From Fidelibacterota bacterium (lineage in GTDB: Bacteria; Fidelibacterota; BS150m-G59): 5,397 nucleotides of DNA. The translations under genes were made by a program, and so were the position numbers. This document shows positions 1,857 to 2,097 of this stretch, piece after piece. The notes under the pieces are model-generated. The model saw only the letters and a program-made list of their open reading frames with translations, was not told where the DNA came from and searched no databases. Every line of letters begins with the position of its first letter. Position 1 is the first letter of the stretch. The DNA lies in contig JADHUZ010000110.1 of NCBI GenBank assembly GCA_016784265.1, forward strand, positions 1 to 5,397. The letters run 5' to 3'.

Positions 1857-1881
1857 TTTCGGCAACCGCCGAAGATTAAAA
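1850..1881 (-). promoter_or_regulatory. Candidate bacterial SECIS element for Sec codon U71, overlapping the rnhA start
   Basis: After the second TGA (1887-1885) a perfect 6-bp stem, TTCGGC (1873-1868) with GCCGAA (1863-1858), closes a GGTT loop (1867-1864). The loop begins 17 nt after the TGA and starts with GG, so it meets the same SECIS criteria as the first hairpin. The stem can be extended with mismatches by pairing 1881-1878 and 1876-1875 with 1853-1850 and 1856-1855, which covers the rnhA start codon. Because the Sec codon is third-last, the element necessarily lies in the 3' untranslated spacer. It could also restrict access to the rnhA initiation region when not unwound. It is not an intrinsic terminator: no U-tract follows and the next gene begins inside it. 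Confidence 0.65.
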
Positions 1882-2097
1882 TCCTCATGTGCCTCCAAAG
1901 CCGATGGTAACGTTGTCGTTTTCGACGAGCACAGGAACAATCCTGCGACCATCGGAATGTTTCAGCATTTGATTCACCGCATCTGCAGATTCTACAACGT
2001 TTTTGTAATCCACATTGTATCCCTTTTTTGCAAACGCCTCACGGGCATCTGTTGTGTAAGGTCAGGTGTTTTTGCCGTAAATGGTGATCTTTTTCAT
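1876..2097 (-). CDS. Glutaredoxin-like selenoprotein with two predicted selenocysteines (U12 and U71; Uxx-stop C-terminus)
   Basis: Read with TGA as selenocysteine (U), this frame gives 73 residues ending at TAA (1878-1876). The N-terminus is MKKITIYGKNT-U-P-Y-T, a beta strand followed by a glutaredoxin/NrdH-type redox motif with Sec in place of the first Cys and Thr in place of the second. A helix follows (DAREAFAKKG, 17-26), then the second strand (YNVDYKNV). The cis-proline loop is I-V-P at 53-55, then strands VLVEND and the glycine turn IGFGG. The tail is T-U-G-F-stop. The two TGA codons are at 2064-2062 and 1887-1885. The start ATG (2097-2095) has a strong AGAGGAG site at 2110-2104, 6 nt upstream. 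The protein has no Cys, so U12 and U71 are the only obvious redox residues. I recall a curated Uxx-star glutaredoxin-like selenoprotein family with this C-terminal architecture, but cannot check it here. It would act as a small cytoplasmic thiol/selenol oxidoreductase; its substrate is unknown. It is the first gene of the rnhA-pyrF-pyrE operon, and the downstream rnhA start is 19 nt away. Confidence 0.85.
2022..2061 (-). promoter_or_regulatory. selC-dependent SECIS: Candidate bacterial SECIS element for Sec codon U12
   Basis: Directly after the TGA at 2064-2062 the mRNA can fold into an 8-bp stem. CAGATGCC (2051-2044) pairs with GGCGTTTG (2038-2031), including two G-U pairs, and closes a 5-nt loop CGTGA (2043-2039). 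An outer 4-bp pairing of CCTT (2061-2058) with AAGG (2025-2022) is possible. The loop begins 18 nt after the TGA and has G at its second position, inside the spacing and loop rules commonly used for bacterial SECIS. The hairpin lies within coding sequence, as expected for bacteria, and would bind SelB with Sec-tRNA. Folding was done by eye only. Confidence 0.7.

Follow-up and report, generated by a model that had tools for sequence, protein, structure and literature searches.

The 5,397-nucleotide stretch of Fidelibacterota DNA analysed here (the window) carries a gene for a member of an already catalogued selenoprotein family, UXX-star selenoprotein family 1 (NF041114), and the column that never changes in the sample of its relatives is that of the C-terminal selenocysteine (Sec; 81 of 81 genes), not that of the active-site Sec (73 of 81). 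The observation is beyond chance, with a family match at 2.9e-31 and a second TGA shared by all of the 80 best relatives out of 198. It is, in our judgement, an even bet that both UGAs are read as Sec and that Sec71 docks in the glutathione site as a built-in partner of Sec12. The analysis adds three things: the invariance of the C-terminal Sec across the sample, evidence from codon choice for the first SECIS, and a proposed function of the tail that can be put to the test.

Translated on the minus strand from 2097 to 1876, the gene (Table 1) encodes MKKITIYGKNTUPYTTDAREAFAKKGYNVDYKNVVESADAVNQMLKHSDGRRIVPVLVENDNVTIGFGGTUGF (U = TGA) followed by a stop, with frame interruptions at codons 12 and 71 only, both TGA, and with zero Cys. 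The preliminary description of this DNA had reported two TGAs as the sole interruptions of a frame without Cys, the first falling at U-P-Y-T and the second being the third-last codon (T-U-G-F-stop), and the translation bears this out in full. Its coordinates, 1876..2097, also stand; they had been given without a strand, and the minus strand was added in this follow-up. The plus strand of the same interval does not give this protein.

Table 1. Positions in the window of the selenoprotein gene, its predicted recoding elements and the adjoining gene.
Feature	Position	Strand	Basis
UXX-star selenoprotein family 1 gene, 73 codons + TAA, two in-frame TGA	1876..2097	minus	translation and profile match
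Shine-Dalgarno-like stretch GAGGAG, 6 nt 5' of ATG	2104..2109	minus	by eye from sequence
Lys9 codon, conserved in 78/81	2071..2073	minus	alignment of window and best 80 of 198 relatives
TGA codon 12, predicted to encode the Sec of UPYT	2062..2064	minus	translation; relatives' column
SECIS-like hairpin 1, within coding sequence; its CGUGA loop is 18 nt 3' of TGA12	2031..2051	minus	scan, folding, codon choice in relatives
Val54 and Pro55 codons (cis-Pro by analogy with glutaredoxins)	1933..1938	minus	models and conservation
TGA codon 71, predicted C-terminal Sec (U-G-F-stop)	1885..1887	minus	translation; relatives' column
SECIS-like hairpin 2, lying entirely past the stop codon; its GGUU loop is 17 nt 3' of TGA71	1858..1873	minus	scan, folding
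rnhA (RNase H), next gene	1422..1856	minus	PF00075, 175.6 bits

In the NCBIfam profile search, the protein scored 107.5 bits against NF041114 (cut-off 72) and 88.5 bits against NF041212 (cut-off 66), while the Pfam search returned the glutaredoxin domain PF00462 at 38.1 bits (cut-off 22.9). In a review (PMC13188914), NF041114 is listed with the motif UxxT and two Sec, with a 2008 ocean survey as its source, and as "distant Grx-like protein 1"; the Uxx-star glutaredoxin-like family suggested in the preliminary description therefore exists, and its curated cut-off is passed. UXX-star family 1 is not named in the passages of the 2008 survey that were found by term search. Two Sec in about 73 residues, which had been presented as a rarity, proved instead to be the normal state of this family. 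The window protein shares with family 1 the length, the UPYT motif, the second Sec with two residues between it and the stop, and the score above the cut-off, and it differs at residue 73, which is Val in 75 of 81 proteins, Ile in 5 and Phe in the window only (1/81). A query with the single protein, carrying C in place of U, gave no viral relatives.

Homologous domains were recognized by profile in UXX-star family 2 (NF041211, 53.9 bits), UXX-star family 3 (NF047338, 57.8 bits) and the HUGP/GUXX-star fusion (NF045501, 54.4 bits), with scores far under the respective cut-offs of 100, 97 and 325. Glutaredoxin 3 of Escherichia coli differs from the window protein: it contains no Sec, its motif is of the dithiol type, and it has both helix 3 and a glutathione site; cGrx1 and cGrx2 are presumably Sec glutaredoxins of Clostridium oremlandii with Sec in the motif only. 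Among the deposited structures, the chains of cGrx1 and cGrx2 (PDB 7c10, 7c12, 4tr0 and 4tr1) have 84 and 92-93 residues and run well beyond the aligned part, and according to the entry titles, the cGrx2 structures contain GSH or GSSG and 3grx is E. coli glutaredoxin 3 as a glutathione mixed disulfide.

The scan of named genomes yielded 198 relatives, of which the best 80 were kept, giving 81 genes together with the window; the record titles of these 80 name Deltaproteobacteria, Desulfobacterales, Acidobacteria, Methylomirabilota and others. All 81 genes have TGA at column 71, as seen in the translations; because the script placed this column by the TGA pattern itself, the figure is a count rather than independent evidence. 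In every gene, two residues and a stop follow (TAA in 27, TAG in 21 and TGA in 33), the 33 TGA ends being taken as stops on the ground of the family layout. At column 12, TGA is found in 73/81 and Cys in 8/81 (72 and 8, respectively, among the best 80 of the 198 relatives), and the Cys12 rows are scattered, since the eight rows require eight changes on a protein tree of low resolution, in which 5 of 76 inner branches are starred. No Cys or Sec occurs outside columns 12 and 71 in 78/81 proteins. As a side observation, in the 33 genes that end in TGA (e.g., L054, L066 and L069), the ribosome would decode one or two UGAs as Sec and then treat the next UGA, two codons on, as a stop.

A collection of 5.8 billion proteins was also searched with the 81-row profile, and 4418 proteins passed 1e-6. 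Among the best 120 of these, 109 end right before residue 71 and carry Cys12 (108 by script and P0019 by eye), P0016 has Leu71 and ten have Trp at both columns; Cys at column 71 was found in none of these 120 proteins and in none of the 81 genes. The collection is mostly translated with the standard code, so that Cys12 forms are favoured and Sec12 forms are largely missing. The ten proteins with both TGAs given as Trp (P0017, P0034, P0035, P0038, P0039, P0042, P0066, P0080, P0084 and P0100) likely reflect an annotation error. The suggestion that homologues would show C or U at both positions thus held for column 12, which is TGA or Cys, and failed for column 71, where TGA stands without Cys.

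The host assembly is a 65% complete draft, and it contains a tRNA-Sec (71.4 bits), selA (511 bits) adjoining selB (314 bits, running off the contig end) and selD (393 bits, with an in-frame TGA); hence, selA, selB, selC and selD, for which a check in the same genome had been proposed, were all found. The selD TGA lies in HGSGUACKL (L046:4203-5123), and selD is likely a selenoprotein itself. Contamination of the contig was considered and rejected, as its tetranucleotide make-up agrees with that of the three sel contigs (r 0.88-0.93), whereas 13 foreign loci gave 0.25-0.65. A tRNA-Sec over the cut-off was present in 38 of 50 relatives' genomes searched (of the best 80, mostly MAGs) and in 5 of 8 genomes of Cys12 relatives, but this co-occurrence is weak as a test, because 150 of 245 genomes of the window's phylum also carry tRNA-Sec.

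Within these 245 genomes, the NF041114 cut-off was passed in two, the window's own and G066, and the window's genome is the sole one with TGAs in the match. The G066 protein carries Cys, in the motif CPHT; its frame closes at TAA or TAG, with no Cys or Sec tail. Two family-1 carriers among 245 phylum genomes point to patchy gain or loss. Another genome of the same phylum, G068, has a tRNA-Sec and contains a glutaredoxin-3-like frame (L043:1450-1698; G068:C78:8791-8976) whose motif opens with TGA (U-P-H-C), likely a Sec glutaredoxin.

SECIS-like hairpins with loops 17-18 nt downstream had been described for both TGAs, and the loops were located at 18 nt for the first and 17 nt for the second. 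According to PMC13188914, the bSECIS limits are a loop of 3-9 nt, a stem of 4-16 pairs, a distance of 16-37 nt from the UGA and an energy <= -7.5, together with a G in the first two loop bases; the scan used here scores an unbroken stem only. The window hairpins, at -8.8 (first) and -7.8 (second) kcal/mol, are both within these limits, which about 1 in 10 ordinary TGA stops also pass, and, folded in isolation, their advantage over shuffled sequences is only moderate, with 6/200 shuffles folding as well as hairpin 1 and 13/200 as well as hairpin 2. An Rfam search of the window gave no match. Across the family, 66/81 second sites pass, compared with 27/262 controls (TGA stops that end long open frames of these loci) and 98/1620 shuffles; 63 of the 66 passing hairpins lie wholly 3' of the stop codon, and 55 distinct stems are represented. 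At the first site, 18/73 genes pass at -5 kcal/mol (vs. 133/1460 shuffles and 67/262 control TGA stops) and 4/73, the window and three others, at -7.5 (vs. 48/1460 and 27/262), which is no better than the control stops, and the hairpin scan alone therefore gives no family-wide support there.

The evidence at the first site comes from codon choice. Arg19 is encoded by CGT in 66/73 Sec12 genes, compared with 3/8 Cys12 genes and 22/227 other Arg codons of the same genes. The loop of hairpin 1 is closed by the third bases of the Ala18 and Glu20 codons, a pair that is C:G in 38, T:A in 27 and C:A in one (n = 66), while Ala-x-Glu triplets elsewhere show a weak link only (C:G 409, C:A 253, T:G 108 and T:A 114). 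To judge from the sequences, this wobble pattern looks like compensatory change at silent positions; on the tree, the coupling amounts to four independent pairs, one of them on well-supported branches, and the Fisher values therefore overstate it.

On the same strand and 3' of the selenoprotein gene lie rnhA, pyrF and pyrE (from the Pfam domains OMPdecase for pyrF and Pribosyltran for pyrE), and on its 5' side, in divergent orientation, Pfam identifies a GNAT acetyltransferase and a dicarboxylate symporter; a promoter scan of 1840-2300 found 2 promoters against 1.0 expected from shuffles. Hairpin 2 stops 1 nt short of the rnhA start codon and would cover the rnhA ribosome-binding region, so that RNase H translation might respond to Sec decoding or to the binding of SelB. 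Elsewhere in the window, positions 4532-5397 encode a protein with bacterial Ig and cadherin-like domains, which extends off the window end. Around the 81 loci, 596 frames of at least 90 residues within 5 kb were clustered and named by eye from sequence, giving LOG-family proteins, HPr, PTS enzyme I, SmpB, Ndk, RlmN, endonuclease III and similar ones. These housekeeping-like neighbours vary by lineage, and no conserved operon across the 81 loci offers a clue to function. In the Desulfobacteraceae loci (e.g., L092, L077 and L088), a LOG-family neighbour was counted in 26 loci, in most of them downstream, and genes for HPr/PTS enzyme I lie upstream and divergent in 20-21.

The AlphaFold2 model, in which Cys was substituted for Sec, reached a pLDDT of 96.3 (mean of the last block 93) and gave a beta-alpha-beta-alpha-beta-beta fold with no helix after residue 47 and a chain ending at 73. 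Residues 53-54 and 71-72 are both assigned 'E' in the full-length model, and when residues 70-73 were deleted, the 'E' of 53-54 was gone and all other assignments stayed the same. Read from secondary-structure assignments and not from coordinates, the model and its tail-deleted control imply that residues 71-72 would pair with 53-54 beside cis-Pro55. Among the 50 matches listed by VIA-align, no alignment extends beyond residue 69. In glutaredoxins, the Val of the VP motif has been reported to bond to the Cys of glutathione, while the contacts to the glutamate of glutathione lie at the start of helix 3 (PMC11724882); for yeast Grx6, a Lys contacting the Gly carboxylate of glutathione has been described (PMC5053157), and this Lys precedes the active Cys by as many residues as Lys9 precedes residue 12. 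The glutathione-site residues are conserved in the family (Lys9 in 78/81, Val54 in 77/81 and Pro55 in 81/81). In contrast to the classical glutaredoxins, the modelled window protein lacks the helix 3 that follows the GG turn and bears the glutamate contact.

From these features, a mechanism can be proposed. According to the model, the Gly-rich tail G-G-T-U-G-F would replace the last glutaredoxin helix, folding back onto Ile53-Val54 beside Pro55, and since Val pairs with the Cys of glutathione in ordinary glutaredoxins, T-U-G-F would take the place of gamma-Glu-Cys-Gly. The attack on the substrate would come from residue 12, which is Sec here and Cys in some relatives, and Sec71, as a tethered stand-in for glutathione, would resolve it as a diselenide or selenenylsulfide; an outside reductant might then reset the 12/71 pair, and free glutathione would not be needed. 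The fuller proposition, a glutathione-free, single-polypeptide glutaredoxin with its own glutathione, in which T-Sec-G-V/F, the last four residues, fills the canonical site and the tail selenium rather than that of the active site is irreplaceable, is put forward tentatively, its chances being somewhat short of even. No earlier proposal of a tethered glutathione was found in the titles or abstracts of the open literature searched.

The same selenoprotein could instead be a chelator, its Sec12 and Sec71 holding the ion of a soft metal or metalloid (Hg, As or Cd) and its tail closing over that ion, which we regard as rather unlikely. PMC13188914 suggests that the Sec of the UXX-star family may be a metal-binding ligand, which is the sole role found proposed for the family in the literature consulted, and the tail position predicted by the model would equally suit a two-selenolate site. 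Column 71 is never Cys in the sample, as expected if selenium affinity matters, but column 12 is Cys in 8/81, no mercury or arsenic gene was recognized by eye among the 18 neighbour clusters (each in at least 5 of the 81 loci), and the kept glutathione-site residues fit a redox role. In mammalian thioredoxin reductase, a C-terminal Gly-Cys-Sec-Gly arm hands on electrons, and with the same family and the same Sec decoding, Sec71 might by comparison be a mobile arm passing electrons to a partner protein. The tail, rich in Gly and with Sec as its third-last residue, would suit such an arm, and the eight Cys12 members carry its thiol/selenol pair; however, the model holds the tail confidently in place rather than loose, and a mobile arm appears improbable. 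That there is no working selenoprotein at all (a pseudogene, sequencing errors or a genome with TGA = Trp) has next to no probability, since, set against an incomplete draft genome and the Trp at both columns in ten of the best 120 metagenome-collection relatives, the same two TGAs recur in 72 of the best 80 other genomes, Cys12 occurs in relatives, the Sec machinery is in the genome, and pyrE and rnhA stop at TGA. The preliminary description had taken TGA as a normal stop in pyrE and rnhA and discounted a recoded genome; both stops were confirmed by eye, and with the Sec machinery and the Cys12 of relatives, the recoded genome was rejected here as well.

For the reading preferred here, in which Sec71 occupies the glutathione site, the supply of glutathione in these organisms is of interest. 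Glutathione synthase (TIGR01380) was over the cut-off in 1 of 51 genomes (the window's own and those of 50 of the best 80 relatives) and gave no hit in the window's own, 65% complete genome. At 1e-20, it was matched in 10/51, and six of these ten matches span the full length and score 245-350 bits, which makes it probable that glutathione is made in some of these organisms. This scarcity, seen in draft genomes without a background set, is consistent with a glutathione-free reading and is no test of it. The idea of a tail in the glutathione site makes the question of why there are two Sec, one of them at the very end, testable, and, if true, it would show a way for glutaredoxin chemistry to proceed in organisms where glutathione is scarce or absent.
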